From NCBI GenBank assembly GCA_013215775.1, contig JABSQO010000016.1:1-37761 (forward strand): a stretch of 37,761 nucleotides of DNA, given 5' to 3'. Within the stretch, counting starts at the first letter, position 1, and every line of letters begins with the position of its first letter. Below are positions 16,247 to 33,364 of the stretch, in pieces. Below the pieces are notes generated by a model that made no database searches, was not told where the DNA came from, and saw only the letters and a program-made list of their open reading frames with translations. Source of the DNA: Piscirickettsiaceae bacterium. Its GTDB lineage: Bacteria; Pseudomonadota; Gammaproteobacteria; Nitrosococcales; Methylophagaceae. Position numbers and translations under genes: made by a program.

Positions 16247-16277
16247 ACTATTTTTTAATAGACTATTAAAAAATAGT
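16247..16277. terminator. 31-base perfect palindrome, bidirectional terminator
   Basis: Two 15-base arms (ACTATTTTTTAATAG and its complement) flank a single A. Each arm contains a run of six T or A, so the structure can stop transcription from both sides. It overlaps the stop codon of the AAA+ gene (16266-16268). Confidence 0.65.
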
Positions 16278-17081
16278 ATCAATCATCTCATGTAATAATG
16301 TTTTGGTTTCATCGTCATCAGTTATTGAATCTGCAATTGCACACTTACATGCTATGTCTGACTTAAAACCACGATTAATTAGTTTTGCTGTATGAACAAG
16401 TAAACGTGTACTTGCACCTTCTTCTAGTCCGTTGCCAACGAGATTTCTTGTCATATTTGCTAATTTAACAAGATGCTCACATTGCTGAATAGATAGTCCT
16501 GATTCTTCATGAACTATTATTTTTTCAACTTCCTCAGTTGGATAACTAAAATTTATGGCAATAAAACGTTGTCGCGTACTTGGTTTGAGATCTTTCACTA
16601 CACTTTGATAACCAGGATTGTAGGACATTGTAAGGCAAAAATCAGGTGATGCTTTTAGAAGCTGACCTAACTTTTCAAGAGGTAATATTCGTCTGTCATC
16701 ACACAATGGATGGATAACTACTATTGTATCTTTGCGGGCCTCAACAATTTCATCTAAATAACAGAAACAGCCATTTCTAACAGCTGTTGTTAATGGCCCA
16801 TCTTGCCAAACAGTACTATTATCTTTGATCAAATATCGGCCGACTAAATCAGCAGTTGTTAAGTCATCATGACATGAAACGGTAATCAATGACCGTTTAT
16901 GATACCAACTCATATATTCCATAAAACGTGTTTTACCACAACCTGTGGGACCTTTAAGTAGAACAGGTATATTTTCAGCCAATGCGGCATTGAATATCTC
17001 AACCTCGTTAGCTATAGGTAGATAGTAGGGTTTCTCATGAATGATATATTCTGAGTTATTAATGATAGTATTTGTATTCAT
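16266..17081 (-). CDS. NorQ/CbbQ-like MoxR-class AAA+ ATPase
   Basis: A 271-residue ATPase with Walker A GPTGCGKT at residues 44-51, Walker B CYLDEI near 106-112, and the sensor stretch MSYNPGY. It has the full CbbQ/NirQ/NorQ pattern, including the C-terminal EGASTRLL sensor-2 region. Relatives form hexamers that work with a VWA partner to activate or insert metal in enzymes such as Rubisco (CbbQ) and nitric oxide reductase (NorQ). It is ten bases downstream of the VWA gene on the same strand, which is the reverse of the usual Q-then-D/O order. No rubisco or nor genes are nearby; the nearest metalloenzyme is the divergent AlkB-like hydroxylase. Confidence 0.88.
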   Translation of the reverse strand: MNTNTIINNSEYIIHEKPYYLPIANEVEIFNAALAENIPVLLKGPTGCGKTRFMEYMSWYHKRSLITVSCHDDLTTADLVGRYLIKDNSTVWQDGPLTTAVRNGCFCYLDEIVEARKDTIVVIHPLCDDRRILPLEKLGQLLKASPDFCLTMSYNPGYQSVVKDLKPSTRQRFIAINFSYPTEEVEKIIVHEESGLSIQQCEHLVKLANMTRNLVGNGLEEGASTRLLVHTAKLINRGFKSDIACKCAIADSITDDDETKTLLHEMIDTIF

Positions 17082-17091
17082 AGTAGTTATA

Positions 17092-19182
17092 TTATGTCGT
17101 TAATTGTTTATAAATAGTTGAAATTTGAATAGGTAACATAGTGATATCCGATATCAGTCGGAAATGTTTCTTCCCAAGCATGTGAGGCAAATAATCCATA
17201 GCTTCTTCGTCAAACGTCAATACAAATGGAGTAATGTGAAGGGCTTTTGCTTCATTAAATGCACGGCGAGTATCTTCAATGCCGTAATGTCCACGATAGC
17301 CATCAATATCATCAGGCTTACCATCTGTAAGAACGAATAAAATTTTAGTTTTAGCATCGGTCTGTTTTAAGGTTTTACTTAAATGCCGGATAGCGGCCCC
17401 CATTCGTGTATATTGCTGTGGTTTAAGAGAAAAAATGCGTTGTTTGATATCATTATTATAGTTTTCGTCAAACTTCTTAACTGGATAGATATGACAGTGT
17501 TCACGTCCCGAACCGGAGAATGCATAGATAGCGTATTGGTCATTTAGATTAGCTAATGTACGTGATAGCAACCATGTTGACTGTTTGATGATCTTGTTCT
17601 TCCAACCCGCTGTTGAACCACTAATATCAACTGCAAATAAAATAGCAATACTACGACCATTTTTATTGTTTCTAATATAGATGTTTTGAAAATCATCAGC
17701 ATGTTTCGTTTTATTAGACTTAGCAGCTACCCATGCATCAATATCGATGTCATCTCCGTCAGCTTGATAGCGAATAAGTTTTTGATCATTAATAATTAGA
17801 TCTAATGATTTTTTTATACGTTTTTCAAAAAACCTCAACTCAAGGTCATCTGTGATGTGTGTTTCATTTATATTTTGGTCGATAGCGATTTCTTCAATTC
17901 GACACCAATTATTTCGATATTGTTTTAGTGAAATGTCCCATTCCGGATATAAATAACTATTTTGTTTTTGCTCATCCCTCAATATTTCCTGTTTTACGTG
18001 ATGATGCTCTATGGTTTCGGCTAAATTTTGCCAAATATCAGTATGAGAGTGATTTGTAGAAATGGAGGGTTCTGATTTGGTGTTGTGTTTAAAATAGATA
18101 CGTTCTGGAACCTGATTATTATTTTTGTCCTCAGTTATTTCACTGTTATTTTCATATATATTCATCATGAGAGGAGGAGGCTGAACCGAACTTGTGTCAG
18201 CTGTATTTTGTGATAACTTTTCAGGTGAAAAATCACTTTGATATGGGAATGAGTCAAAAATCTTTTTTTTAATACCAAACTGTCTTATCCAAGCTAAGCT
18301 ATCAAAAACAGTAGTCGCGGTATGTTCAGAAAAAATATACTCCGGATAAGTATCTATAGTTAATTTTTCATGTATTGAGAGGATGTTTTTCCAAATGCCA
18401 GGAAATTTCTTTTTAAGATAATGATTTATTCTTAAGGTTTCTAGTGTGGAAAATATATCAAGAAAATGATCACCGTATTCAATAACACCTTCTTTAATGT
18501 CTTTTAAGGCACTATTTGTTTGTAATTCAATTTGCCCAAGTAGTTGAAAAGTCATGATTTTATAGAGCAAGTAATTATCTTGATAATTGTCAAATAAACT
18601 AATTGATTCAGGCAAGAAAATGCTTTTTCCATTTGTATATGGACGCTGGTCACTAGAGGGATCTAAACGAATTAAAGACAACTCTTGTTGAGTTATTGAA
18701 AAGATAAGTTTTTCTAATACATCAACGACATTTGAGAATGAAGTGGTTGACTTATTTATTTGTAAGTTGAATTCTGAATAGTTTTTAATTAATCTATTGG
18801 CTTCGTCTAGCTGACTAGAACTTAAGGCCAGTATGATTTGTTCCATCCATTGCTTATGTTCATCTCTATCCATACTATTTATAGCAGGTGTATATACCAG
18901 CATTACTGAATAAGCATGAGACATAGACAGTTCTGATAATTTAGAAAGTTGGGCTAAAAATTGAGTCTGTAACGCATGACTAAGGCCTGCTAGTTGGGTA
19001 ACTGAACCCATAATTGAGTCTTTAGTTTTAATTCCATCCAATATTAATTCAATACGAATTTTTAATTCCGTAGTACTCATTCCACCACACGACCCTGTTT
19101 GCCTAGACTCTAGCAATGTGGGCTTTATCATCTTCTGAGATGGTTTCGTTTGTTTTTTAAACCAAGCACTCATGAACTTCAT
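17092..19182 (-). CDS. NorD/CbbO-like VWA-domain protein
   Basis: A 696-residue protein. The first ~480 residues are helical with little recognisable motif content and a low-complexity central linker rich in Asn, Gln and Glu. The C-terminal ~190 residues form a von Willebrand A domain with the MIDAS motif DISGSTAG (DxSxS) and a TDGKPDD loop. This layout matches NorD and CbbO, which pair with NorQ/CbbQ ATPases and bind the client through the MIDAS metal. The start is ATG 19182 or ATG 19173; neither has a strong ribosome-binding site. It is divergent from the hydroxylase gene with a 313-base spacer. Assignment as a maturation factor of that hydroxylase is inference. Confidence 0.85.
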   Translation of the reverse strand: MKFMSAWFKKQTKPSQKMIKPTLLESRQTGSCGGMSTTELKIRIELILDGIKTKDSIMGSVTQLAGLSHALQTQFLAQLSKLSELSMSHAYSVMLVYTPAINSMDRDEHKQWMEQIILALSSSQLDEANRLIKNYSEFNLQINKSTTSFSNVVDVLEKLIFSITQQELSLIRLDPSSDQRPYTNGKSIFLPESISLFDNYQDNYLLYKIMTFQLLGQIELQTNSALKDIKEGVIEYGDHFLDIFSTLETLRINHYLKKKFPGIWKNILSIHEKLTIDTYPEYIFSEHTATTVFDSLAWIRQFGIKKKIFDSFPYQSDFSPEKLSQNTADTSSVQPPPLMMNIYENNSEITEDKNNNQVPERIYFKHNTKSEPSISTNHSHTDIWQNLAETIEHHHVKQEILRDEQKQNSYLYPEWDISLKQYRNNWCRIEEIAIDQNINETHITDDLELRFFEKRIKKSLDLIINDQKLIRYQADGDDIDIDAWVAAKSNKTKHADDFQNIYIRNNKNGRSIAILFAVDISGSTAGWKNKIIKQSTWLLSRTLANLNDQYAIYAFSGSGREHCHIYPVKKFDENYNNDIKQRIFSLKPQQYTRMGAAIRHLSKTLKQTDAKTKILFVLTDGKPDDIDGYRGHYGIEDTRRAFNEAKALHITPFVLTFDEEAMDYLPHMLGKKHFRLISDITMLPIQISTIYKQLTT

Positions 19183-19495
19183 TATATATTGCCAATAACT
19201 TATTGTATCGACAGCATGAAGGATAGTAGATGATATGTTGATACGTAATTTTACTTATGAATTAAGGCGATTTTAATTATAATTACAACTTCATAAAATA
19301 GTGTAAGCCATTGAAAGCAGACAATAATAAACCCTCACAAAAACACTAGGGATATATACGTATATCCAAAATCTCAATAGAAACTTAAAGTACATCTCAG
19401 TTGGAAAACTTTCGACTAGAGAGAATTGTTGGTAATCAGACTGGCAAGCTCCAATGTAAATTCATAACGACAATTGTTGGGGAGAACTGAATGTC
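19183..19495. promoter_or_regulatory. Divergent control region, VWA gene / hydroxylase gene
   Basis: This 313-base AT-rich spacer has no gene. It holds an inverted repeat GGATATA-TACG-TATATCC at 19350-19367, a candidate operator, and a TATAAT at 19278-19283 with a poor -35 (TTATGA) at 17-base spacing, as often seen in activator-dependent promoters. Just before the hydroxylase start, GGAG (19481-19484) is ideally spaced to an ATG at 19491 that opens a two-codon ORF (ATG TCA TGA) overlapping the true start. Confidence 0.45.
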
Positions 19496-20680
19496 ATGAA
19501 AAAGATTTTAATTAATATTAGGTACTTTATGGCGCCAATACTCATTCTGGTGAGTATGATGGGCGTATTAATTGGTGGGCCATTAGCTTGGACCGGAGTA
19601 GTGTTGTTTGGAGTGGGCGTTCTATTAGATACCTTGAGTATACCCTTTCATCCAAAGGGCGCTGGTTTTGATGAGAATGGCGAAACAAATGGAATCGCTG
19701 GATTACAAAATGCAGTAATGTACACAATGTTGCCAGTGTTTGTGCTTTTACAGCTTGTAATGGCATGGCGAATATTTCAATACGTAAATGGTGTTCCTAT
19801 TGAGCCAGGTATGTTTATGGGTATACCTATTCAAATGGGTGTTTCAGGAGCTGAACTAATCGGTGCAACCTTATCAACAGGTATTTTTGCTGGTATCGGG
19901 ATTATTTTTGGTCATGAATTAGCACATACAAAAGGCTTTAGTTTCATACTTTCTCGTTTAATGATGGGTTTAAGTGGTTCATCACACTTCTGTTATGCAC
20001 ATGTATACAACCACCATCTAGAATTAGCGCATCAAGACGATCCTGCAACATCACCACGCGGTCGTTCCCTCTATAGACATTTTTGGTTATCTCACATGGG
20101 TCAATCAAAATTTTTATACAAAATGGAACAAGTACGATTAGCCAAGTTAGGAAAATCATTTATCTCTTTAGATAATCGTTGGATTCGTGGTTACCTTATG
20201 AGTTTACCAACAATGATTCTGTTCGCTTGGGTGGGTGGTCCGATTGGTATTGCATGTATGTTCTTAATTTGGACTGTATCAAACTTCGAGCTAGAAGCAC
20301 TCAACTACATGGAGCATTATGGTCTTATTCGAGAAAAAGGTCAGCCAATTGATTATCGCCATTCATGGGATAACGATAATATGTTTACAGCTTGGTTCTT
20401 TATCGAAATTGGACGGCAAGGTGATCATCATGACCGTGGTGAAACGCATTTCTGGGAGTTGGATGAAGTAGGTTCTCCAAATCCAGGGTGGGGATATTTC
20501 ACTGAGTTGATGATTGCATGTGTCCCACCACTTTGGCACTCAGTTTATAAGAAAAAACTGGCGACATGGGATAGGGACTTTGCTTCAGAGGGTGAACGAG
20601 CTATTGCACAAAGAATTAATTCTCAAGCAAATTATGAAGTTAATGAGGATGTCCCCTCATCATACGCAAAAATCTCGTAA
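19496..20680 (+). CDS. AlkB/XylM-like membrane diiron hydroxylase
   Basis: A 394-residue inner-membrane protein with about six membrane helices. It aligns well to alkane 1-monooxygenase AlkB: HELAH (His140, His144), HVYNHH (His169, His173, His174) followed by the AlkB-like DPATSPRGRSLYR, and NYMEHYG (His274). The last box, HSDHH in AlkB, reads QGDHH here: Gln308, His311, His312. So one of the nine expected iron-ligand histidines is Gln. The family inserts oxygen into terminal C-H bonds or alkenes of hydrophobic substrates, using electrons from a rubredoxin or a XylA-type reductase. A XylA-like reductase is encoded four genes on. Substrate unknown; XylM/CymA-type oxidation of methyl groups is equally possible. 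Confidence 0.87.
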   Translation: MKKILINIRYFMAPILILVSMMGVLIGGPLAWTGVVLFGVGVLLDTLSIPFHPKGAGFDENGETNGIAGLQNAVMYTMLPVFVLLQLVMAWRIFQYVNGVPIEPGMFMGIPIQMGVSGAELIGATLSTGIFAGIGIIFGHELAHTKGFSFILSRLMMGLSGSSHFCYAHVYNHHLELAHQDDPATSPRGRSLYRHFWLSHMGQSKFLYKMEQVRLAKLGKSFISLDNRWIRGYLMSLPTMILFAWVGGPIGIACMFLIWTVSNFELEALNYMEHYGLIREKGQPIDYRHSWDNDNMFTAWFFIEIGRQGDHHDRGETHFWELDEVGSPNPGWGYFTELMIACVPPLWHSVYKKKLATWDRDFASEGERAIAQRINSQANYEVNEDVPSSYAKIS

Positions 20681-20683
20681 CAA

Positions 20684-20727
20684 TAGTGTGACAAAGATAG
20701 TCGGGATTTATCCCGGCTATCTCACTA
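20684..20727 (+). other. Long intercistronic hairpin after the hydroxylase gene
   Basis: Nested arms TAGTG...CACTA, AGATAG...CTATCT and CGGGA...TCCCG around loop TTTA form a strong hairpin four bases after the stop. No T-run follows, so it may be an mRNA-stabilising or processing element that sets different expression of the hydroxylase and the downstream genes. A partial terminator is the alternative. Confidence 0.55.
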
Positions 20728-20750
20728 TCACGAACTTTAAGAGGTGAAAT

Positions 20751-21113
20751 ATGAGTGAAGAAAGTTTATACGACAGATTAGGTGGCCATGATGGTATTGA
20801 GTCTTTAGCAACCACCACATTTAATAATCATTGCAAGAATGAAGCTATTAAAAATAGATACGCAAATAGTGATGCCGAAGAAGTTATAAGAAAAGTAACA
20901 GAGTTTATGTGTGCTGGCTTTGGCGGCAAAGAGGAGTACACCGGAGACGATATGTTAACAGCCCATACGGGGATGAATATATCAGAAGAGGAATTTAATG
21001 CGGTTGTTGATGATGTCTTAAAGGCACTCGAAACACACAATGCAGGCCAAAAAGAAAAAGATGAAATTCTAGCTGCGCTCTGGTCAATGCGCCCTGAAAT
21101 AGTTCATGTCTAA
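20751..21113 (+). CDS. Cytoplasmic truncated haemoglobin, group 1
   Basis: A 120-residue protein with the 2-over-2 haemoglobin start SLYDRLGGHDGI and the proximal-His segment LTAHTGMNIS (His72). No signal peptide. TrHb1 proteins bind O2 and NO and can detoxify NO or serve in O2 delivery. The ribosome-binding site (AGAGGTG) is good. It is paralogous to the exported protein at 23660-24148 (shared FNAVVDD and QKE-DEILA segments). Its position just behind a diiron oxygenase suggests O2 supply or NO protection of that enzyme; this is inference. Confidence 0.9.
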   Translation: MSEESLYDRLGGHDGIESLATTTFNNHCKNEAIKNRYANSDAEEVIRKVTEFMCAGFGGKEEYTGDDMLTAHTGMNISEEEFNAVVDDVLKALETHNAGQKEKDEILAALWSMRPEIVHV

Positions 21114-21134
21114 TTTATTCAAAAGGGGAATAAC

Positions 21135-21314
21135 GTGAAAGTAAACTGGGATGAAAACGTATGTCAACACGCTGGAGTATGCGTCACAAATTACTCATCG
21201 TTGTATAAAGTTGAAGATGGAAAGTTTGTCATTAGCACTGAAAATGCGACCGACGAACAGATAAAAGAAAGTATCGCAAAGTGTCCATCTGGTGCATTAA
21301 CAAGCGAAGACTAA
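21135..21314 (+). CDS. Small Fe-S protein (divergent 4Fe-4S mono-cluster type)
   Basis: A 59-residue protein starting at GTG 21135 with AGGGG upstream. It has C10-QHAGV-C16 and C50-PSGAL, the pattern of the Fer4_19 '4Fe-4S mono-cluster' family. Only three Cys are visible, so a 3Fe-4S cluster or a fourth ligand from His12 is possible. It lies between the haemoglobin and GST-like genes in the hydroxylase operon, where it could carry electrons or act as a maturation scaffold. It replaces the rubredoxin AlkG expected beside a true alkB. Confidence 0.8.
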   Translation: MKVNWDENVCQHAGVCVTNYSSLYKVEDGKFVISTENATDEQIKESIAKCPSGALTSED

Positions 21315-21355
21315 ATCATTTTTAAACCTAAAAATATAAAGGTAGGAGAGAGATA

Positions 21356-22042
21356 ATGGCTATTGGTGATAATTTAGCAAATGCAAAAGTACTTTATGGT
21401 GTTACTGGATGTGCAAATACAAGTAAATGTTTATTTGCGGCAGCTGAAAAAGGAATTGATATTAATGGTATAGGTATTGACCCTAACCAGGATTCAGATT
21501 TAGCTCAAATCAAAGACGGTTCGCCTTTCGGTAGTTTACCTATGCTTAAAGATTCCGATTTCTATGTGTATGGAACAGAGGCTATCTTGTCATATCTTGA
21601 TGACAAAGGTTTCGGTAACTCACTAATTCCAAGAAATGCTGTAGCAAGAACACAACTATATCAATGGGCGCATGTTGCTCAGAAGGTGTTTGCACCAGAA
21701 GTAAAAAAAATCAGTGATGGTAATTCAGATGCTACTGCTCTTGAAGCAGTTAAAACTATATTGTCAAAACTGGAAAATCAGCTCAAAACAAAAGTTCAAC
21801 GTGGTGATTATATTGTGGGTGACTTCAGTCTAGCTGATATTCACTGGGCACCCTATATTCATGCGTGCTGCCTGTATGGTAATGAGGCGTTGATTGATGC
21901 CTTACCTGCCGTCAAAACATGGTGGTCTCATATGAAAGTAAGAAAGAGCACAAGTAAAGAAAACTACGTTGCTTATACGGTATTACCTTCACTCGATGAA
22001 ATAAGCAATAACAAAATGCGTTCTGTCAGTATTAATGCGTAA
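21356..22042 (+). CDS. Glutathione-S-transferase-like protein, copy 1
   Basis: A 228-residue protein with a GST layout: a thioredoxin-like N-terminal half (residues ~10-85, with GSPFGSLPML and the YGTEAILSYL segment that normally holds glutathione) and an all-helical C-terminal half with GDFSLADIHWAPYI. The usual catalytic Ser/Tyr position carries GCANTSKC; a Cys in the KC pair is shared with the copies at 32675 and 33365. The tail TVLPSLDEISNNKMRSVSI resembles that of copy 3. It follows the Fe-S gene with a good AGGAGAG site. Conjugation of an epoxide or reactive product to glutathione is one possibility; a structural role is another. Confidence 0.78.
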   Translation: MAIGDNLANAKVLYGVTGCANTSKCLFAAAEKGIDINGIGIDPNQDSDLAQIKDGSPFGSLPMLKDSDFYVYGTEAILSYLDDKGFGNSLIPRNAVARTQLYQWAHVAQKVFAPEVKKISDGNSDATALEAVKTILSKLENQLKTKVQRGDYIVGDFSLADIHWAPYIHACCLYGNEALIDALPAVKTWWSHMKVRKSTSKENYVAYTVLPSLDEISNNKMRSVSINA

Positions 22043-22082
22043 TATCGAAATATCTCATCTTAATTAACAAGAAGTAGCCACC

Positions 22083-23165
22083 ATGTTTGGATTTTTTAAA
22101 AATAAAAAGCAAGATTACGAAACTAAAATTAACTCAGGCGAGATGCTCATAGTTAGAGCCGGAGACAATTTACTAAAAGCAGCCTTAGAAGCAGATATTG
22201 CATGGCCTCATGATTGTCGTGTGGGTAGCTGTGGTACATGTAAATGCAAACTGGTTGATGGAAAGATAAAAGCACTCGCTGACTTTAGTTATGTATTGGA
22301 AGGAGATGAGTTACAAGATGGCTATATCTTGGCATGTCAAACGCAATTAAGATCTAATGTAACAATCGAAGTTGATTTACTTGACGATAGCCAAAAACAA
22401 AATCACTGGGAGTCGGATGCAGTAATTACAGAGATAAATGATCTCACTCATGATATTAAAGAGGTCATCATTGAAATTGATCCTAATGATTTACCCAAAG
22501 GAGTAAGTCTGTTCCATGCGGGTCAGTATGCAGATCTCAAATTGCCAGACTTAGAAGGTAGAAACTATTCATTTGCAACAGCACCACATGCAGATCAGAA
22601 CCAATTTAAATTTTATATTAGAAAGGTTCCAGGTGGAGAATTCACTGAATGGTTGTTCAAAGAAGAACGAACTGGCCAATCTCTAAAAATGTCAGGGCCA
22701 TATGGTTTGTTTGGTTTAAAAGAAGATGAGCTACCAATGCTATGTATCGCTGGTGGTAGTGGAATGAGCGCAATCATCAGTGTTTTGCAGCAAGCATTGG
22801 AGTCTGGGGTTAAGCGAGATGTTCGTTTTATCTTTGGAGCGAGAACGGAGGCTGATCTCTATTGTGGCGATTTGATCAGTCAATTAGCTGTAGATTGGGA
22901 AAAAAATAATCTAGGAAAGTTTGTCTATATACCCTGCCTTTCGCAGGAAAAAGAAGATAGCTCATGGGAAGGTCGAATGGGTTCTTGCATAGATTGTATT
23001 CTCGATGATGGCGTTGCACTGTCTGGACAGGCATACCTGTGTGGACCGCCTGGAATGATAGATGCAGCGATAGATGTTTTAGTGAAAAACGGCATGAGTA
23101 ATGATGAAATTTTCTTTGATAAATTTCTGGATAAAAGTAATGCTAATCCTATTGCAAGTGCATAA
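22083..23165 (+). CDS. XylA-like ferredoxin-FAD-NAD(P)H reductase
   Basis: A 360-residue electron-transfer protein. A plant-type 2Fe-2S domain comes first, with cysteines 45, 50, 53 and 85 (CRVGSCGTC...C). An FAD domain has RNYSFA at 160-165, and an NAD domain has GGSGMS at 224-229 and a later CGPPGMID. This is the fused layout of XylA, the reductase of xylene monooxygenase, so it is the probable electron donor of the hydroxylase at 19496. The N-terminus (MFGFFKNKK) recalls that of the GST-like protein at 32675 (MGFFSFGRKK). It is cytoplasmic or membrane-associated. Confidence 0.92.
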   Translation: MFGFFKNKKQDYETKINSGEMLIVRAGDNLLKAALEADIAWPHDCRVGSCGTCKCKLVDGKIKALADFSYVLEGDELQDGYILACQTQLRSNVTIEVDLLDDSQKQNHWESDAVITEINDLTHDIKEVIIEIDPNDLPKGVSLFHAGQYADLKLPDLEGRNYSFATAPHADQNQFKFYIRKVPGGEFTEWLFKEERTGQSLKMSGPYGLFGLKEDELPMLCIAGGSGMSAIISVLQQALESGVKRDVRFIFGARTEADLYCGDLISQLAVDWEKNNLGKFVYIPCLSQEKEDSSWEGRMGSCIDCILDDGVALSGQAYLCGPPGMIDAAIDVLVKNGMSNDEIFFDKFLDKSNANPIASA

Positions 23166-23201
23166 GTTAAATATATAAATTATTAGTTTTGGAGGTAAAA
23201 A

Positions 23202-23405
23202 ATGGCTTCATTTAAAGCAATAGTCGTAATGGCTATATGGACTGGAATCGTGGGTTATGGGCTGTATGACATAGGCGCATTAGAAAATTTTCGTCAACCA
23301 CTTTGGGCAGTTGGAATTGGTACGGCTTTATTGGTAACACATTTAGTCAATATGTCGATTTATTTCAAAGTGGCCGGTGAAAAACCATATGAATGGTTTA
23401 ACTAA
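23202..23405 (+). CDS. Small two-helix membrane protein
   Basis: A 67-residue protein with two predicted membrane helices (residues ~4-24 and ~33-53), the second ending before a charged tail GEKPYEWFN. An AGGT ribosome-binding site is present (TTTTGGAGGTAAAAA before ATG). It somewhat resembles DUF1145-type small membrane proteins, but I cannot confirm that. Its place directly after the reductase suggests it could be a small subunit or membrane anchor of the monooxygenase complex. Function unknown. Confidence 0.72.
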   Translation: MASFKAIVVMAIWTGIVGYGLYDIGALENFRQPLWAVGIGTALLVTHLVNMSIYFKVAGEKPYEWFN

Positions 23406-23458
23406 AATCAATCTTAATTACTCATAAACCTAAACAATAGAGTAATTGAATAGCCGTC

Positions 23459-23631
23459 ACTCAAAATTTAAGAGGCTTAGGCTTTGATGGCACATTAGGT
23501 GCTGTTAACTACTGTATCAGGCATTGGCACAGAGTTTCGTGATAATCGAAAAAGGTGATTACGGTACATATACCAATGAAGAAGTTAGTTCGTGGCATGT
23601 TGGGTTTGGTCTTACATGGCATTTTGAATAA
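23459..23631 (+). pseudogene. Decayed outer-membrane beta-barrel gene fragment
   Basis: Three overlapping reading frames give a continuous barrel-like sequence: LRGLGFDGTLGAVNY, then GIGTEFRDNRK, then GDYGTYTNEEV and SSWHVGFGLTWHFE-stop. The last part has the alternating, aromatic-ended pattern of a C-terminal strand of an outer-membrane protein. Two single-base frame changes and no start codon show it is a remnant. It may be the former outer-membrane uptake porin of the operon (AlkL/OmpW- or FadL/XylN-like); the family is not decided. The in-frame start at 23555 extending the haemoglobin ORF is rejected for this reason. Confidence 0.5.
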
Positions 23632-23659
23632 ACGTTACATTTACTATAGGAAATTAAAC

Positions 23660-24148
23660 ATGAAAAATTTTATTAAAAGCATAGCCATTGTTGGCGTTCT
23701 ATGTTCTTCACTTGCATCAATGAATGTAATGGCTGATGAAGCAGTAACGGCAGCTCCAGCAGGTCCAACGCTTTATGAACGCATTGGTGGTGAAAAGGGC
23801 ACTAGAGCAATTGTAGAAGATGTTTGGACTAATCATACTAACAACCCAATTATAAAAGCACGCTTTCTTTATAGTGATCCAGTACGTGTCAAACAAGTTG
23901 TGTTCGAAATATTTGCAGTAGCAACGGGTGGCGATGTTGAATATACAGGTATGGATTTAGCTGAAAGACATAGCAATATGAACATCAGTGAAATGGAGTT
24001 TAATGCAGTTGTTGATGACATTATGGATGCATTGACTAAGAACAATGTTGCACAAAAAGAACAAGATGAAATATTAGCAGTTTTATGGGCTACACGTCCT
24101 GCTATTGTCAACGGTAATATGACAACTCAAGCACTGACTGCTAAATAG
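23660..24148 (+). CDS. Exported truncated haemoglobin, group 1
   Basis: A 162-residue protein starting MKNFIKSIAIVG with a signal peptide cleaved near NVMA (residue 25), then a TrHb1 domain from LYERIGG to the proximal-His segment AERHSNMNIS (His104) and QKEQDEILAVLWA. It is a paralog of the cytoplasmic protein at 20751 and is predicted to be periplasmic. Secreted truncated haemoglobins are uncommon; a role in O2 or NO handling at the periplasmic side is inferred. A start at 23555 is rejected, as it would read through the pseudogene out of frame. A terminator follows. Confidence 0.88.
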   Translation: MKNFIKSIAIVGVLCSSLASMNVMADEAVTAAPAGPTLYERIGGEKGTRAIVEDVWTNHTNNPIIKARFLYSDPVRVKQVVFEIFAVATGGDVEYTGMDLAERHSNMNISEMEFNAVVDDIMDALTKNNVAQKEQDEILAVLWATRPAIVNGNMTTQALTAK

Positions 24149-24292: not shown

Positions 24293-24562
24293 ATGCCTAA
24301 ATTTATTATTGAAAGAGAGATCGATGGAGCAGGGGATTGGACACAAGAAAATATGGCTGAAATTACACAAAAATCTTGTTCAATCTTAAAAGATATGGGC
24401 CCGGAAATAGAATGGATTCATAGTTATGTAACGGATAACAAAGTCTATTGCCTATATAATGCGTCTAATAAAGAAGCTATTTTGTCTCATGCTGAAAAAG
24501 GTGGTTTTCCCGCAAATAAAATCAGTGAAGTAAAAAACATGTTGAATCCAACACCAGTTTAA
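24293..24562 (+). CDS. DUF4242 (SCO4226-like) small protein
   Basis: An 89-residue protein with the DUF4242 pattern: MPKFIIEREIDGAG at the start, QKSCSILKDMGPEIEWIHSYVT, CLYNASN and HAEKGGFPANKISEV. The family forms ferredoxin-like dimers, and one Streptomyces member binds nickel. It begins the second run of plus-strand genes after a terminator; a small palindrome ACACT-AA-AGTGT at 24215-24226 lies in front. AAAGGA provides a ribosome-binding site. The function of the family is not known. Its Cys and His residues could bind metal. Confidence 0.85.
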   Translation: MPKFIIEREIDGAGDWTQENMAEITQKSCSILKDMGPEIEWIHSYVTDNKVYCLYNASNKEAILSHAEKGGFPANKISEVKNMLNPTPV

Positions 24563-24588
24563 TTTTTACAAACATCAATTAAACTAAA

Positions 24589-25653
24589 ATGCTTACTAAT
24601 ACTAGTTTCACGGAATTAGTCGGGATTCAATGGCCAATAGTCCAAGCCCCAATGGTAGGAGGCTATAGCAGTCCAGAAATGGTTGCTATAGTTTCTAATT
24701 TAGGGGGGTTAGGAACATTGGCATTAGGCAACTTAACACCAGAACAAATAAAACAACAATGTAACCAAACCTTATCACTCACTGATAAGCCTTTTGCAAT
24801 TAATTTATTTGCAAGACAAAAACAAACCATTCCAAGCCTAAATAAAAATTCGGAAGAAATTAAAGCATTAATACCATACTATCAACAGCTAGAAATTGAT
24901 GAGTCAGTACTATTCAACCAGAAAATAGCTAACTTACCCGATTTAAACTTACAGATAGACGCTATTCTTAATACGGAAGTTCCAATTGTTACTTTCACTT
25001 TTGACATTCCAAGCCCTGATATTGTCGAAAAACTTAAACAAAGTGGCAAAATTGTAATTGCAACTGCAACAAGTACTGACGAAGCAAAACTAGTTCAAAA
25101 TGAGGGTTTTGACGCTGTAATATTGCAAGGGAGCAATGCCGGCGGTCATCGTGCATCATTTCTAACAGATGGCAACGGTGGCCCAGAAACGCAGTTACTT
25201 CTCAAGCAAACAAAACAAGCTGTATCCATTCCCATTATTAGCTCAGGCGGGATAATGAACGGCCAGCAAATAGTCCAACATATTTCAAATGGAGCAGATG
25301 CCTGTCAGTTGGGTACAGCATATTTATTTACAGATGAAGCTAAAGTAGAAAGCTACTACCTTGAAGCACTGCTACAGCATCAAGTAGAAACATGTCTTAG
25401 TGATAGTTTTACAGGGAAATATGCTCGTGTACTTAATAATAGATTTGCAAAAGAGATGAAGCCGTATCGAGCAGCATCTTTTCCATATCAAGGTCAATTA
25501 ACATCAAGTATACGTTCTAAAGCAGCTGATATTGGTCGATATGAATATCTACCCTTTTGGGCTGGTGCTTCCTACTCATTAGGTCGGCGACAAACAGCAG
25601 CATCTCTAACGAAAACATTAATCGACGAGTTAAAGTTTTCAATGTCTTACTAA
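24589..25653 (+). CDS. Nitronate monooxygenase (2-nitropropane dioxygenase family)
   Basis: A 354-residue FMN TIM-barrel protein. It has the N-terminal signature PIVQAPMVGG, the GSNAGGHR motif containing His187 (the catalytic-base motif of class I nitronate monooxygenases) and GADACQLGTAYL in the FMN phosphate-binding region. The enzymes oxidise alkyl nitronates, such as propionate-3-nitronate, to aldehydes or keto acids, using O2. It follows the DUF4242 gene by 26 bases. Whether nitro compounds are its real substrate here is unknown; it could instead oxidise another product of the cluster. Confidence 0.9.
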   Translation: MLTNTSFTELVGIQWPIVQAPMVGGYSSPEMVAIVSNLGGLGTLALGNLTPEQIKQQCNQTLSLTDKPFAINLFARQKQTIPSLNKNSEEIKALIPYYQQLEIDESVLFNQKIANLPDLNLQIDAILNTEVPIVTFTFDIPSPDIVEKLKQSGKIVIATATSTDEAKLVQNEGFDAVILQGSNAGGHRASFLTDGNGGPETQLLLKQTKQAVSIPIISSGGIMNGQQIVQHISNGADACQLGTAYLFTDEAKVESYYLEALLQHQVETCLSDSFTGKYARVLNNRFAKEMKPYRAASFPYQGQLTSSIRSKAADIGRYEYLPFWAGASYSLGRRQTAASLTKTLIDELKFSMSY

Positions 25654-25776
25654 TCAGATTAGTTGATACGACAAAAATCTTTACACAGTTTAATTTATCA
25701 TAATCAGGTATGAAGAATTACATTTAATCAATTCTAAACAGACCATTTCCTTTTAATTATTTCACAAAATTCATTT

Positions 25777-26961
25777 ATGACAGATCTTATATTACATAAG
25801 CATGAAAAGTATATTACTGAAGACTTAAATTATTATTTATCTGCCAAAAGAGATGTAAACAATCAAATTCAACCGAATGAAGATATCTACAACTTAACCC
25901 TAAACTCTCAACATTTTAATATTGATTTTAATGATGGAAAGGTGGGCAGCATATTTTTCCCATTCCCTGCTTTTTCTATTGAGCGAATATATATAGGACC
26001 CAGCTTCCCATTATTTGCAAATAATTGGGGCACATCTTTTCTTCGATACTTACTGACAAGGATAAAACCAAGTGGTTGTATAATTTTACCTGTATATCCT
26101 GAAATGCAGGCTGCAGAAAAAAACCTATGGTCTAGAAGTATATTGGAGAGTTTATTTCTTAGTCGTAGCCGCTGGAAAGGGACAAGTAATATCTGGGCTG
26201 AAAATGATGGTGTTATGTCGATGAGAGTAGGCAGAAAATGGCCTGCAATGACTAGGAGTACAGCAAAGTATTTTTTTGCCCAAGGTGCAAATATTGTTAT
26301 CCGCCAAAGTATGCAAAATAGCTCAATTAGTACTTGTGAATCATTATTTAAGTTGGGGCAAATATACTGGAATAACTCAAATAATTCAGCAATTGTAGAA
26401 AAGATTATTCAAGATTGTTTTGGCAGAAAACAAGCAGTTTCACTATGCGATGTAGGTAATAGTAATGGCCTTCTTGGAATTGAATGCCTTTTGAGTAATT
26501 ATATCAAAATAAAACAGACGATATGTTTCACCATAGAAAACCAGTCTTTGCTTGATTATAAGCTGTTAGTTAATAGTTTTTATCATGAAATTCATGACCG
26601 TTATATACCTGTAAATAACGGTGAAATAGAGACGTTAAACTATTTGCCAGATTACGATATTGTCTGTCTAATCGATTGTTTATCAGACAAAACATCAAAA
26701 GAAAAAATGGCTACGCTTGTATTAAAAGCATGGGAGAGAGTAAAACCCGAAGGGATTTTAATTATTAATGATGATCAAGAGGTAATGGACAATATATCCT
26801 CATTATTAGAGTCCTTTGGCAGAATAAATTATTATTCGTCAATAGTCGCATCAAAAATAATCGAAGGTGAAGTGATTTCCCACTATAGCAATGCAATAGA
26901 GCAAGAATTAGTGATAGAGAGGCGTGATAAAAATAAAGTCTTCAGGGTTATTCAAAAATAA
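25777..26961 (+). CDS. Unknown protein, possible tandem methyltransferase-like
   Basis: A 394-residue soluble protein I do not recognise. Residues ~225-240 (CDVGNSNGLLGIE) resemble motif I of Rossmann methyltransferases, and KPEGILIINDD near 330 resembles the later strand. In the N-terminal half IKPSGCIILPVYP is a similar strand-turn, so the protein may be two half-domains. Glycine-rich motif I is degenerate, so S-adenosylmethionine binding is uncertain. It is flanked by the nitronate monooxygenase (122 bases) and the MetX-like gene, in the same direction. No signal peptide or membrane segment is seen, and it is lower in GC than its neighbours by eye. Confidence 0.6.
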   Translation: MTDLILHKHEKYITEDLNYYLSAKRDVNNQIQPNEDIYNLTLNSQHFNIDFNDGKVGSIFFPFPAFSIERIYIGPSFPLFANNWGTSFLRYLLTRIKPSGCIILPVYPEMQAAEKNLWSRSILESLFLSRSRWKGTSNIWAENDGVMSMRVGRKWPAMTRSTAKYFFAQGANIVIRQSMQNSSISTCESLFKLGQIYWNNSNNSAIVEKIIQDCFGRKQAVSLCDVGNSNGLLGIECLLSNYIKIKQTICFTIENQSLLDYKLLVNSFYHEIHDRYIPVNNGEIETLNYLPDYDIVCLIDCLSDKTSKEKMATLVLKAWERVKPEGILIINDDQEVMDNISSLLESFGRINYYSSIVASKIIEGEVISHYSNAIEQELVIERRDKNKVFRVIQK

Positions 26962-27232
26962 CATCAACAAGACTGTACCAGTTCAACTTGCTATAACGCT
27001 GCAATGAATACTAGCTTTAATAGGTTCTTTCATTCCACAATTTAACTAATAGATAAAATAGAGTCATGAAATTTTACCTTTGTACATTACTTGCTTTAAT
27101 CTAAGAAAAAGCAATAAGTAGAAATACGGGTTAGTAAATTGATGAATAGTGTCTATTGTTCATATGTTAGAACATAGTAGAAAAAATCTAAATATAGAGT
27201 TTACATTACCTAATTATAGAGGGAGAAAAAAT

Positions 27233-28282
27233 ATGTCAGACAATAACTATTACACATCGGAACAGCATGGTGATTTTGAAGTTTATGAACTTGGTGATTT
27301 TGTATTGGAAGGTGGTGAAACACTTCGAGGAGCAACGTTAGCCTATACCTGTTATGGGAAACTTAATTCCCAAGGTGATAATGCAATTCTGTTTCCAGTA
27401 ATGTTTTCTGGTACACATTCAGCCATGGCACCTTATGTTGGTGAAGGATTGGCATTAGATCCTGAAAAATATTTTATTGTGATTCCTAATCAATTAGGTG
27501 GGGGATTATCAACATCACCGCATAATACCAATGGTCCTTATCAAGCAGGATACTTTCCAAATTTATCTATTGGCGATGATGTAAGAGCACAAAATCAATT
27601 GCTCACTCATCTTGGTGTTAAACATTTACAGTTAGTCACTGGTTGGTCTATGGGCGCACAGCAAACCTATGAATGGGCTGTTCGCTACCCCAACATGGTT
27701 GAGCGCGCAGCACCTATAGCTGGAACGGCAAAAACTACACCACATTGCTCGTTATATGTAGATGTATTTTGTGAAGCATTAACATCAGATCCAGCATGGA
27801 ACAATGGTGCATACAAAGAATCATCAGACGTAGAAGTGGGTTTACGACGACTGTCCCATGTTTTTGCAATGATGGGTGTTTGTCAAAACTTTTATAATGA
27901 TGAGCTTTGGGCAGATTATGGTTTTTCTTCTAAAGAAGACCTACTTAAAGGTTTGTGGGAAAACTGGTTCTTACCAATGGATCCCAATAATTTGCTTTGT
28001 ATGGCGAAGAAATGGAATTCAGGAGATGTAAGTTTACATACAAATGGAGACTTATCCGCAGCCTTGGCGAGTATCACGGCTAACGTTTTTGTTATTTCTT
28101 TCGAGCAAGATATGTTTATATCTCCTGCGGATAGTATGAAAGAGCAACAAATGATTCCTCGGAGTGAGTTAGTTTCAATCCCATCACCGTGGGGTCATTT
28201 TACTATGCTAGGCATTTCTCCTGAAGACTTCAAAGCTATTGATAGCAGCTTGAAAAGACTGTTAGAAACAGAAAGCCTTTAG
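27233..28282 (+). CDS. MetX-like alpha/beta hydrolase (homoserine acyltransferase family)
   Basis: A 349-residue alpha/beta hydrolase-fold protein of the MetX family. The nucleophile elbow is GWSMGAQQ (Ser139), the acid Asp is in FEQDMF, and the His is in PWGHFT, which completes a Ser-Asp-His triad. MetX acylates homoserine or serine; several relatives act as other hydrolases. Start 27233 is preferred: GGGAG lies upstream, and the extension to 27149 adds an atypical N-terminus. A true methionine biosynthesis role is doubtful because the gene sits in an oxidation cluster; hydrolysis or acyl transfer of a degradation intermediate is possible. Confidence 0.82.
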   Translation: MSDNNYYTSEQHGDFEVYELGDFVLEGGETLRGATLAYTCYGKLNSQGDNAILFPVMFSGTHSAMAPYVGEGLALDPEKYFIVIPNQLGGGLSTSPHNTNGPYQAGYFPNLSIGDDVRAQNQLLTHLGVKHLQLVTGWSMGAQQTYEWAVRYPNMVERAAPIAGTAKTTPHCSLYVDVFCEALTSDPAWNNGAYKESSDVEVGLRRLSHVFAMMGVCQNFYNDELWADYGFSSKEDLLKGLWENWFLPMDPNNLLCMAKKWNSGDVSLHTNGDLSAALASITANVFVISFEQDMFISPADSMKEQQMIPRSELVSIPSPWGHFTMLGISPEDFKAIDSSLKRLLETESL

Positions 28283-28412
28283 GAAATAAGATAATTAAAT
28301 ACTTTTCCAATTTCCATTTATAGAATATAGACAACTTTATAAATTGCTAGATAGCTATCATAAGAGTGATAATGGTTGACGTTTAAACTGTATATAAAGG
28401 AGTAAATAATCT

Positions 28413-29576
28413 ATGTATTCGGAAACTTCTAAACTTTTAGAAAAAGTTGAAGAGATTAGTAGAACAGTTATTGCAAAAAATGCTGTTAAAACTGATAAAA
28501 ATGCAGAATGGCCAGAAGAAGGAATTCGTGCCTTACTGTCAGCAGGCTTCGGCGGCCTTACAGTACCACTGGAATATGGTGGTTTAGGGCATGGCACTGA
28601 AACTTTGTCCAAGGTATGTGAAATTATTGGTCAATATTGTGCCAGCACATCTATTTGTTATGGTATGCATTGTGTAGGTAGTGCGGTGATTGCTTCAAAA
28701 GTAACCCGCTATCAGCAGGAAAAATATTTAACTCCTATATGTGAAGGCAAGCATATCACCTCATTATCGCTTAGTGAAGTAGGTTCTGGCTCTCATTTTT
28801 ATCTACCACAAACAAAAATGATCAGTACTACTGATGGAAGTTATCTCATTGATGGCGCCAAGTCTTTTGTCACGAATGGTGGCTATGCAGATTCATACGT
28901 GGTGTCTGTAGTTACAGAAGAGCCAAATCAGTCATCAGGTCGATTTAATTGCATTATTATATCCGCAGATAGTCCAGGTGTTGAATGGGGGCCAGTATGG
29001 GCTGGCTTAGGTATGAGAGGTAATAGTTCACGTAATTTATCATTAAACAATGTGAAAATCTCAGATCAAGAAATCTTGGGTAATATCGGCGATCAAATTT
29101 GGTATATATTCAATATTATTACACCGTATTTTTTAACGGCGATTACAGGTGCATATCTGGGTTTAGGGCGTGCAGCAATTGAAGAAATAAGAGCTCATGT
29201 AATGCAACGGAAGTTTTCATATAATGACAAAACAATAGCATCTTCATCAGTGATACAGCACAAAATAGGGGTTTTATGGGCAAAATATGTTCGAACTAAG
29301 GCATTAATATACTATTCAACACAGCGCTATGACAAAGGCATCGAGGATAGTCAGCTAGACTTATTTTCTGCAAAGGCAGAAGTGGCTGACAGTGTAATAG
29401 ATATTGTCAATGAAGGAATGACGCTTTGTGGTGGTAGCATGTATCGTGCAGATTCTAATCTCAATAGAATGTTACGAGATGCACGTGCTGCTCACATAAT
29501 GTCACCAACAACAGATATGCTAAGGATTTGGACGGGAAGGTCAATTCTTGATCAACCGTTACTTACTGATACTTGA
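28413..29576 (+). CDS. Acyl-CoA dehydrogenase-like flavoprotein
   Basis: A 387-residue protein with the ACAD fold: the N-terminal helical domain, SLSEVGSGSHF at the FAD/acyl site, the middle beta domain (WGPVWAGLGMRGNSSRNL), and the C-terminal helices with GGSMYRADSNLNRMLRDARAAHIM. In typical ACADs a catalytic Glu follows there (as in YEGT), but here the stretch reads SPTTDML, so Glu is replaced by Ser. The superfamily also contains nitroalkane oxidase and flavin monooxygenases such as DszC, which lack that Glu. The true reaction is undecided. An AGGAG ribosome-binding site precedes the start. Confidence 0.82.
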   Translation: MYSETSKLLEKVEEISRTVIAKNAVKTDKNAEWPEEGIRALLSAGFGGLTVPLEYGGLGHGTETLSKVCEIIGQYCASTSICYGMHCVGSAVIASKVTRYQQEKYLTPICEGKHITSLSLSEVGSGSHFYLPQTKMISTTDGSYLIDGAKSFVTNGGYADSYVVSVVTEEPNQSSGRFNCIIISADSPGVEWGPVWAGLGMRGNSSRNLSLNNVKISDQEILGNIGDQIWYIFNIITPYFLTAITGAYLGLGRAAIEEIRAHVMQRKFSYNDKTIASSSVIQHKIGVLWAKYVRTKALIYYSTQRYDKGIEDSQLDLFSAKAEVADSVIDIVNEGMTLCGGSMYRADSNLNRMLRDARAAHIMSPTTDMLRIWTGRSILDQPLLTDT

Positions 29577-29577
29577 T

Positions 29578-31551
29578 ATGAGTAGCCGAATTTCATTGTT
29601 TTCTACTAATGATGAACCTCTTTTAGAATATTTAAATCTTAATCTAAGTGCCGGAGTATTTTTAGAACATATTGACACCATTGATGACTTATATAGTCGT
29701 ATGGAAAATAACTATGGTATTCCTGATATTCTTATTTTAGGATTAGCAGTTCAAGAGCCAATTAGAATTGCTGAACACACGCATCGAATTTCAAAATCCA
29801 CTAAGATAATCATCTTTTGTTTATCAAATCAGGAAGATGTATTACGAGAATCAATACGGTTTTCTCCATTTTTAAGTTCTGATGTTTCTGCTTATATTTT
29901 TAAGGAGAAAGAAGAGTTTTTAACTATTCTTCAAAATCAAGTAAATGTAATTGAAAATCAACGCAACTATCAAGCCACGATGGTAGAAGTTGAGAAAGAG
30001 CGATTGGCATCAATAACTAATCAACCGCTCGTCGCTAATTACTTAGATAAACTCTTAGATAGAATACCAATAGGGATCTTGAATATAGATTCTAAAGGTA
30101 AGATTCTAAACCTAAATCCTAGTGCTCAAAGATTACTCAACCATGATGAAAGAAGTCTTATAGGTACCTATTTATTTAATCTCTTCCCACAAAAAGAATT
30201 AATTGAAATCAAAGGGTTGATTAATGATGTAGTAAATGATGACAATAGAAATGACAATAGTAGTGAGATTTTTTGTTTCAAAGACCCGAGTGGAAACCTG
30301 TATTTTGAGATGACAATCTCAATACTATCTTATACGCCCATTGAGCCTATATTGAATGTGATTTTGCAAGAGGTCACTCTTAAAGTACAAGAAGAATCTA
30401 AGCGTCTTATAGTAGAAAAGGCACTTCACCAGAGTGAACAACAGCTAAAATTAGTTATTAATGCAATACCTGAACTTATTGCTTATGTAGATCAAGATCT
30501 GAGATTTCAATTTAATAATAAAGCATACGAAAAATGGTTTGGACGAACTCGTGAAGAAATTATTGGTAAAAAGGTTTGGGAAGTAATTGGTGAGAAATCT
30601 TATAAAATTATCGAGCATTATGTAAAACGGGTATTGTCTGGCGAAACGGTAACATTTGAAGAAAAGTTAGCATTTGAAGAAAAATTAAATTACCCACAGA
30701 AACGTGAAGTATTCATTCGTAGTACTTACATCCCCAACTTTTCTGAAACGGGTGATGTTATCGGTTATGTTCTATTAACCTCGGATATCACGCAATCAAA
30801 AAGGGATGAGGAACTCGAAAAGAAACATATGCTTGAACTAGCACACACTTCACGGATAATTACGATTGGTGAAATGAGCTCACAACTAGCCCATGAGTTA
30901 TCTCAACCACTGACATCCATAGAAGCATATAGTCGTGCATGTATTACGTTGATTCAAAAAGATCAAACAACTGAAGGTGAAATTTTAAATGCATTGGAAA
31001 ATGTATCTAGTCAGGCGATTCGTGCTCAAGAAATAATGCATGAGTTACGAAACTTTGTGAAAAAAGAGGATTCACGAAAATGTATTTGTATAAATGATCT
31101 GATTAAATCAGCCATAAAGTTATTACAACTAGAATTCCAAGAAAATGATCCAGCGATTGAATTAAATCTAAGAGGTGACTTGCCTGAGGTATTTGCAGAT
31201 CGTATTCTGATTGAACAGATATTGATCAACTTAATCAAAAATGCAATAGAGGCAATGCGAACGTTAGCTGTGTCAGAACGACGATTACTAATTGAGTCTT
31301 CGAAGAGTCAAAATGGTGAAGTTTCTGTTTCTGTGCACGATAGTGGTCCTGGATTAAGTGAATATGAAATAAATAAAATTTTCGAACCATTCTATACAAC
31401 AAAACCAGAAGGTATGGGAATGGGGCTTGCTATTACACGCTCGATTATCCACTCCCATGGTGGAGATTTAATAGTTAACCAAAATTCACACGGTGGTACA
31501 ACATTTAAATTTACATTACCTGTGGAAGATATAGAATTTTTAGGAGAGTGA
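29578..31551 (+). CDS. PAS sensor histidine kinase, FixL/TodS-like
   Basis: A 657-residue cytoplasmic kinase without membrane segments. Residues ~1-115 look like a receiver-type fold (PDILILGLA) without the phospho-Asp, then come two PAS domains (PIGILNIDSKGKILNLN at ~165 and AIPELIAYVDQDLRF at ~305). The FixL-type H box is AHELSQPLTSIEAY with His439, followed by NLIKNAIEAM, VHDSGPGL and GMGMGLAITRS. ATG 29578 directly follows the upstream stop; a TTG at 29548 with GAAGG upstream is an alternative. With the response regulator three bases downstream it forms a pair that could sense an aromatic ligand, oxygen or redox state through its PAS domains. Confidence 0.88.
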   Translation: MSSRISLFSTNDEPLLEYLNLNLSAGVFLEHIDTIDDLYSRMENNYGIPDILILGLAVQEPIRIAEHTHRISKSTKIIIFCLSNQEDVLRESIRFSPFLSSDVSAYIFKEKEEFLTILQNQVNVIENQRNYQATMVEVEKERLASITNQPLVANYLDKLLDRIPIGILNIDSKGKILNLNPSAQRLLNHDERSLIGTYLFNLFPQKELIEIKGLINDVVNDDNRNDNSSEIFCFKDPSGNLYFEMTISILSYTPIEPILNVILQEVTLKVQEESKRLIVEKALHQSEQQLKLVINAIPELIAYVDQDLRFQFNNKAYEKWFGRTREEIIGKKVWEVIGEKSYKIIEHYVKRVLSGETVTFEEKLAFEEKLNYPQKREVFIRSTYIPNFSETGDVIGYVLLTSDITQSKRDEELEKKHMLELAHTSRIITIGEMSSQLAHELSQPLTSIEAYSRACITLIQKDQTTEGEILNALENVSSQAIRAQEIMHELRNFVKKEDSRKCICINDLIKSAIKLLQLEFQENDPAIELNLRGDLPEVFADRILIEQILINLIKNAIEAMRTLAVSERRLLIESSKSQNGEVSVSVHDSGPGLSEYEINKIFEPFYTTKPEGMGMGLAITRSIIHSHGGDLIVNQNSHGGTTFKFTLPVEDIEFLGE

Positions 31552-31554
31552 AAA

Positions 31555-32484: not shown

Positions 32485-32674
32485 GTTAATTTCATTATTT
32501 CTTAACAATATATGAAAAATTACGTAGATGAATTTTCAGGGAAAATGGTTACTATTAAATCCTCAAATAAGACGCGGGCATGTCGACAGCAATGAGTTAA
32601 TAACTTATGTGAGTACGCTGTGAAAATATTAGCCAGTTTTATTGATGTAAATAACTTATATAGAGGTGAAAATA

Positions 32675-33340: not shown

Positions 33341-33364
33341 ATCACTAAAATTTAGAGGTAAATT

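Follow-up and report, generated by a model that had tools for sequence, protein, structure and literature searches.

AlkB-type hydroxylases start much of aerobic alkane breakdown and hold their diiron site within membrane-embedded helices, and we know of no assembly or maturation factor for these enzymes or for the wider superfamily of AlkB and the membrane fatty-acid desaturases. For nitric oxide reductase, the way in which the buried iron sites of a membrane enzyme are filled is understood in outline. Two reports on the responsible pair, the AAA+ ATPase NorQ and the VWA protein NorD (NorQD), describe it as needed to insert the non-haem iron FeB into the membrane enzyme cNOR (PMC9976466, PMC13036017), with recent structures favouring a finger-in-pore arrangement that works by twisting and stretching and with NorD proposed to hold its client at two points (PMC13036017, PMC9976466). 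The changes T534V and D562N in the metal-ion-dependent adhesion site (MIDAS) of Paracoccus NorD abolished cNOR activity and left NorQ binding intact (PMC9976466). Here we describe a further pair of this kind, which stands back to back with an operon for an AlkB/XylM-like hydroxylase in a 37,761-nucleotide stretch (the window) of contig JABSQO010000016.1 from a Piscirickettsiaceae bacterium of the family Methylophagaceae (GCA_013215775.1). The functional link between pair and operon is well supported by sequence comparison because the two co-occur, keep a constant divergent adjacency, share a single-copy element in the gap between them, and evolve under purifying selection, and because the pair is distinct from the nor and cbb pairs that the genome also carries. 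We judge it an even call whether the pair forms a NorQD-type machine dedicated to the AlkB-like diiron enzyme and acting on it probably by inserting iron; both target and act are ones that we infer.

The back-to-back arrangement named in the original prediction was borne out, as all reading frames are present and carry the expected Pfam domains (matches counted above curated cut-offs) except the 67-residue membrane protein. On the minus strand, the NorD-like gene is followed by the NorQ-like gene with a spacing of 10 bases. The ATPase is assigned to the NorQ/CbbQ group of MoxR AAA+ proteins by its AAA_5 and CbbQ_C domains and intact Walker A and B motifs, which are unchanged across 11 NorQ/CbbQ rows bar a single T-to-S substitution, and its nearest solved structures by sequence are NorQ (9qhd) and a CbbQ/NirQ/NorQ-domain protein (5c3c). 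Its partner, nearest by sequence to the solved NorD 9qhd_G, has the C-terminal VWA domain and complete MIDAS (DxSxS, T, D) of a NorD/CbbO protein, with D519, S521, S523, T592 and D620 invariant across 33 NorD/CbbO rows. The model predicted from the 33 rows (mean predicted local distance difference test score, pLDDT, 75.4; an earlier model from 9 rows, at pLDDT 40, was set aside as useless) places a mostly helical region at residues 37-324 and a low-confidence stretch at 327-384 ahead of the VWA domain, a predicted layout as described for NorD. Residues 408-696 of the model superpose on NorD 9qh6_G (Z 30.5, root-mean-square deviation 5.0, 281 residues aligned); all fold matches lie within this region, and we claim nothing about the fold of the N-terminal part, which they barely cover.

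That no nor or rubisco genes are visible, as originally predicted, is true of the window but not of the 2.2-Mb genome (G000), which has both on other contigs. A cytochrome c and COX1-family pair, read as norCB, is accompanied by its own NorQ and NorD on contig C1 (locus L059), and a rubisco large subunit, which we read from its sequence as form II, by its own CbbQ and CbbO (CbbQO) on contig C12 (L060). The 11 alkB-linked rows form one clade apart from the nor and cbb rows in both the NorQ-type tree (36 rows) and the NorD-type tree (41 rows), with 100/100 support in each. The window pair is not one of these sets displaced, because both are present elsewhere in the genome and the trees give the pair a clade of its own: it is neither located with norCB nor inside the NorQD clade of cNOR maturation, and neither located with rubisco nor inside the CbbQO clade of rubisco activases. 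With NorQD it shares an AAA+ ATPase with CbbQ_C and a VWA protein with MIDAS, preceded in the predicted model by an apparent N-terminal domain and linker, and the enzyme that NorQD is known to serve is likewise integral to the membrane and has a non-haem iron site, but the window pair lies against alkB and the nor-linked NorQD elsewhere. The AAA+/VWA architecture is likewise common to CbbQO, whereas the neighbour of the window pair is a membrane hydroxylase and the genome's rubisco is provided with a CbbQO of its own.

The stems of the alkB-linked clade are long (0.74 changes per site for NorQ and 2.32 for NorD), and within it G000 groups with G027, G417 and G420 at 100/100 in the NorQ and NorD trees and at 84/97 in the AlkB tree. 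In both protein trees the clade joins a third clade of gammaproteobacterial NorQD ("third clade" is our own label), which thereby contains the nearest relatives of the window pair but differs in that the third-clade loci read do not adjoin AlkB; the deep order of the NorD tree is unsure because long branches were flagged. The third clade is widespread, with NorD at E ≤ 1e-80 in 57 of the 366 class-sample genomes outside the window's genus, an assignment made by score and verified in the NorD tree for 22 rows. Beside the third-clade pair, HdrA2/HdrC-like (Qmo-like) genes, whose NCBIfam matches fall below cut-offs, occur in six of 17 loci (L175, L176, L179, L181, L183 and L187 among L172-L188) and in none of eight loci with an orphan NorD or NorQ (L122-L126, L169-L171); these proteins are possibly another client of the machine family.

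The association of pair and hydroxylase was assessed in 63 genomes of the order, taking E ≤ 1e-75 to define alk-type NorD and E ≤ 1e-100 to define close AlkB. Each was found in 11 genomes, both in 10 and neither in 51 (Fisher p = 9e-10, uncorrected for relatedness), and the same eight carry both among the 42 genomes with a completeness of 90% or more and a contamination of 5% or less. The adjacency of pair and alkB is more than chance, because AlkB and NorD-NorQ are divergent neighbours in 10 of the 10 genomes that have both, a count of conserved neighbourhoods of the kind suggested with the original prediction; the contrary possibility raised there, that such a pair belongs beside nor or cbb genes and stands here by accident, is contradicted by this adjacency and by the separate clade. 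In G011, G018, G024 and G025 a contig end truncates the adjoining alkB, in G011 to 62 residues. The two exceptions to co-occurrence are both in less complete assemblies: G014 (81% complete) has AlkB without the pair, and G026 (84%) has the pair without AlkB on a 6-kb contig that stops approximately where alkB would start, with the gap element still present. Although the cluster is reshuffled among genomes, the divergent adjacency of AlkB and NorD is retained. In five genomes of the window's genus (G013, G018, G023, G024 and G025) the regulator, kinase and acyl-CoA dehydrogenase genes lie on the opposite side of NorQ, as do the regulator and kinase in G026 before its contig ends, and the contigs of G027 and G011 stop before any of the three. 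Further AlkB copies away from the pair are found in several genomes.

The gap between alkB and norD holds a conserved element, CTAGGGATATATACGTATAT, that includes the 12-bp palindrome ATATACGTATAT. Its consensus in the gap alignments is CTAGGGATwTATACGTATwT, and it sits 131-160 bp upstream of alkB in 10 compared loci, slightly altered in G013, and also precedes norD in G026. A 17-bp form, RGGATWTATACGTATWT, has a single match per genome in 10 of 17 whole genomes searched, each in the alkB-norD gap; it is present once in 10 of the 11 pair-bearing genomes, the eleventh being G013 with its variant, and has no match in G013 or in the six searched genomes without the pair. A reversed control pattern gave no match in the 17 genomes. 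The case for the element rests on conservation and position because the palindrome alone is not rare, having at least one match at one mismatch in 19 of 100 shuffles of the window. A scan of positions 19100-19560 detected no terminator-like sites. We infer that the element is a control site, on which the LuxR-type response regulator of the island is a candidate to act.

Both sides of the gap are under purifying selection, as seen from low ratios of nonsynonymous to synonymous change (dN/dS) of 0.045-0.14 for NorD (three pairs), 0.03-0.09 for NorQ (two pairs) and 0.04-0.09 for AlkB (unsaturated pairs), with the G417-G420 comparison saturated for both NorD and NorQ. The hydroxylase itself has the FA_desaturase domain and conserved histidine boxes of the AlkB/XylM diiron family, and its nearest solved structures by sequence are those of the AlkB alkane 1-monooxygenase (8sbb and 8f6t), with which it shares the invariant histidines; ten are invariant across 27 AlkB rows with gaps ignored (140, 144, 169, 173, 174, 195, 274, 289, 311 and 312). 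It departs from AlkB in its partner genes, which encode a 4Fe-4S protein and a XylA-like reductase, and no rubredoxin was found among the scanned island proteins, the part of the genome that was searched for it. The adjoining 2Fe-2S reductase is instead a likeness to the XylM/XylA xylene monooxygenase of the TOL plasmid pWW0, but the window AlkB is 31% identical to XylM across 55% of the length, and no AAA+/VWA pair is present in the 5.6 kb of pWW0 examined. XylM and two XylM-like rows form a 100/100 branch of their own away from the window AlkB clade, a weak separation given flagged long branches and only three XylM-type rows. To AlkB, XylM and desaturase proteins of plasmids the window AlkB is 23-37% identical at the best place per record (52 plasmid records with hits). 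All 11 main-clade rows have an acidic residue at AlkB position 226, where the six rows of G148, G274, G169 and G378 have Q or S, five AlkB paralogues from the genus have Q or K, and five rows from genomes with the third-clade pair have Q. This column was the only acidic position specific to pair-linked AlkBs, may have arisen by chance and is too thin to use.

The genes lie where the original prediction had placed them, within a block at 16266-24148, but the island continues to approximately position 34144 (Table 1). In G417 and G420, from another genus of the same family, the gene order is identical: NorQ, NorD, AlkB, globin, Fer4_19, GST1, reductase, TM67 and globin 2, continuing with the SCO4226-like, nitronate-monooxygenase-like (NMO-like), 394-residue and MetX-like proteins, acyl-CoA dehydrogenase, PAS kinase, response regulator, GST2 and GST3. 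One extra gene between TM67 and globin 2 in these genomes encodes an outer-membrane protein of the FadL/TodX type (Toluene_X by Pfam in G420), for which there is no space at that place in the window.

Table 1. Positions of the gap element, the NorQ/NorD-like pair and the hydroxylase island in the window
Feature	Positions	Strand	Basis or remark
NorQ/CbbQ-like MoxR AAA+ ATPase, 271 residues	16266-17081	-	Pfam AAA_5 and CbbQ_C; Walker A GPTGCGKT; Walker B ends LDE
NorD-like VWA protein, 696 residues	17092-19182	-	Pfam VWA; predicted mostly helical N-terminal domain, low-confidence linker, VWA with MIDAS
Intergenic element with 12-bp palindrome (19354-19365)	19346-19365	+	Gap alignments
AlkB/XylM-like membrane diiron hydroxylase, 394 residues	19496-20680	+	Pfam FA_desaturase
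Truncated haemoglobin Glb1, start not signal-like	20751-21113	+	Pfam Bac_globin
Small 4Fe-4S protein	21135-21314	+	Pfam Fer4_19
GST-like protein GST1	21356-22042	+	Pfam GST_N/GST_C
XylA/BenC/MmoC-like 2Fe-2S-FAD-NAD reductase	22083-23165	+	Pfam Fer2, FAD_binding_6 and NAD_binding_1; NCBIfam matches below cut-offs
Membrane protein TM67, 67 residues	23202-23405	+	No Pfam match
Truncated haemoglobin Glb2, signal-like N-terminus (by eye)	23660-24148 (longest frame from 23555)	+	Pfam Bac_globin
SCO4226-like protein, NMO-like protein, 394-residue protein without Pfam or NCBIfam match	24293-26961	+	Syntenic in G417 and G420
Alpha/beta hydrolase (MetX-like, our own label) and acyl-CoA dehydrogenase	27149-29576	+	Part of island
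PAS sensor kinase and response regulator with LuxR-type (GerE) DNA-binding domain	29548-32193	+	
GST-like proteins GST2 (32666-33340) and GST3 (33365-34144)	32666-34144	+	GST family support weak; island end per G417 and G420

Several features of the operon recur beyond the window. Both truncated haemoglobins are kept in G417 and G420; the start of the second, predicted as exported, does look signal-like by eye, but on the same inspection the ATG at 23660 is a more likely start than position 23555. A TM67-type membrane protein of 67-90 residues adjoins AlkB in several subclades and families, although not beside every AlkB copy (the window was aligned with 16 loci: L045, L052, L054-L058, L087, L088, L090, L092, L097, L099, L100, L203 and L204), and AlkB enzymes of this class may have it as a small subunit. 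GST-like proteins, often paired, likewise recur beside AlkB copies (GST1-GST3 in the window; L054-L058, L088 and L092). In the rearranged clusters, a metallo-beta-lactamase-fold protein is found beside the acyl-CoA dehydrogenase (L045:15153-16103, with frames that share its start sequence in L043, L044, L047 and L048); its resemblance to a 'quinoprotein relay system zinc metallohydrolase' scores under the curated cut-off.

A number of observations weigh against a dedicated AlkB-serving machine and bound how far it can be generalized. Relatedness inflates the Fisher value, by our estimate there may have been only two or three independent acquisitions, and co-occurrence alone cannot single out AlkB because the sensor pair and the acyl-CoA dehydrogenase travel with the island too. 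The promoter scan of the gap did not exceed shuffled sequence, which had 2.3 sigma-70 promoter-like sites to the two observed. Of 369 genomes sampled from the class, 17 have AlkB at E ≤ 1e-60: three are of the window's genus, 10 have a close AlkB outside it and four a more distant one. Neither NorD (at E ≤ 1e-10) nor NorQ (at E ≤ 1e-40) is matched in three of the close-AlkB genomes, G169, G378 and G282 (94-99% complete), and the pair is therefore not generally required for AlkB. In G169 and G378 the AlkB is accompanied by Fer4_19, GST and reductase proteins and by one with a weak likeness to TM67; contig ends truncate the AlkB copies of G282. Two more (G148 and G274) have NorQ/NorD rows that cluster with the nor and cbb rows. 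Such an AlkB is therefore probably made without the pair in some lineages. The other five (G066, G071, G207, G212 and G314) have third-clade NorQ and NorD that do not adjoin AlkB, although a NorQ of G212 lies approximately 6.6 kb from one AlkB copy; third-clade NorD is found in five of 10 close-AlkB genomes against 52 of 356 others, among which the distant-AlkB genomes G165, G256, G278 and G375 are counted (p = 0.01, uncorrected for relatedness). Among 398 genomes sampled from the phylum, 47 carry an AlkB-like gene (E ≤ 1e-25), 126 a NorQ-type gene (E ≤ 1e-60) and 11 both; of those 11, only the window's own genome has the two within 100 kb (3.2 kb, the next closest being 160 kb) among the places listed, which may lack a second NorQ place of a genome. 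The pair-AlkB neighbourhood is confined to one family in our samples and looks like a lineage-specific invention and not a general rule of AlkB.

The chief rival explanation accepts AlkB as the target but has the pair repair or reactivate the enzyme by removing an inhibitor or dead-end state, as CbbQO does for rubisco, in place of loading its first metal. This fits better with the dispensability that other lineages suggest, since close AlkBs in genomes without NorQD matches are more readily squared with a helpful but non-essential partner than with metal insertion that is obligatory; we nonetheless consider it unlikely, as the characterized membrane-enzyme client of the family, cNOR, is served by metal insertion, and nothing in the island indicates an AlkB inhibitor. 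That the client is instead another metalloprotein of the island, for example the Fe-S protein, the reductase or a haemoglobin, draws on the several metalloproteins encoded in the same operon and on the synteny of most of the island in G000, G417 and G420. We rate this as quite unlikely, because AlkB, among the genes compared, adjoins the pair in 10 of 10 genomes, the five rearranged clusters of the window's genus included, where the sensor-regulator pair and the acyl-CoA dehydrogenase are on the other side of the pair, and because the first globin was not seen in the G023 cluster, whose stretch from AlkB to TM67 is uncut.

The nearest relatives of the pair raise a different prospect, namely that it is a third-clade NorQD carried along as a passenger or substitute and still doing an older job. 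The branching of the alk-type pair with that widespread clade, and the HdrA2/HdrC-like neighbours of six of 17 third-clade loci, would suit such a history, but it appears improbable: none of the other 52 genomes of the order has a NorD of the alk-type score, which indicates that this NorD is not a housekeeping protein there, the long stems are as expected for a changed role, and the gap retains its one conserved element. Displacement of the organism's own nor or cbb pair into the window would account for identical protein families in a window devoid of nor and cbb genes, and yet with L059 and L060 each holding a pair in its own separate clade we regard this origin, on sequence grounds, as all but ruled out.

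We return to the dedicated machine for AlkB, of which the most economical reading would be that AlkB receives from this pair the service that cNOR receives from NorQD. A hydrocarbon-oxidation island would have recruited and retained its own NorQD-type pair as a third paralogue beside the genome's NorQD and CbbQO. By analogy, a NorQ hexamer would hold the NorD finger in its pore and work as in NorQD, while the NorD N-terminal domain and MIDAS face would grip the AlkB-like membrane hydroxylase; ATP-driven twisting could then open the hydroxylase so that iron enters the buried diiron site or damaged iron is replaced, with the gap element presumably serving in regulation. The original prediction held that the pair matures or reactivates the diiron hydroxylase, of which the functional link is now well supported, and AlkB as the target and maturation or reactivation as the act are putative. 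More broadly, the data suggest that such enzymes have a dedicated activator in some gammaproteobacteria.

The view that no hydrocarbon monooxygenase system of this composition had been described is in keeping with the literature, as we found no description of a NorQ/NorD or MoxR/VWA pair with an alkane monooxygenase or hydroxylase in open-licence publications, where the wider matches listed were judged from titles and the starts of abstracts. The same literature yielded no paper on Methylophagaceae with alkane and AlkB and no maturation factor for the AlkB/membrane fatty-acid desaturase superfamily. An AlkB, possibly the counterpart of the window gene, is reported from a Cycloclasticus metagenome-assembled genome (PMC12510462). 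For Methylococcus grown on methane, the genes tabulated with the greatest fitness effects under CRISPR interference include a NorD (MCA2754), which the authors interpret as a putative rubisco activase, and the NorQ-type gene MCA2746 (PMC13108547).

That one lineage or more provides its integral-membrane diiron hydroxylases of the AlkB family with their own ATP-driven machine for inserting iron, constituting a third functional class of NorQD/CbbQO with its client co-regulated through one divergent control region, rates in our judgement a little short of an even chance. The compactness of the island and the presence of a conserved element in a single gap make it easy to test, and a dedicated pair would offer a testable case that could help explain why some AlkB-like enzymes work poorly in foreign hosts. 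If true, this would be the first maturation factor known to us for the superfamily of AlkB and the membrane fatty-acid desaturases, and would add a new type of client for MoxR AAA+/VWA machines besides nitric oxide reductase and rubisco.

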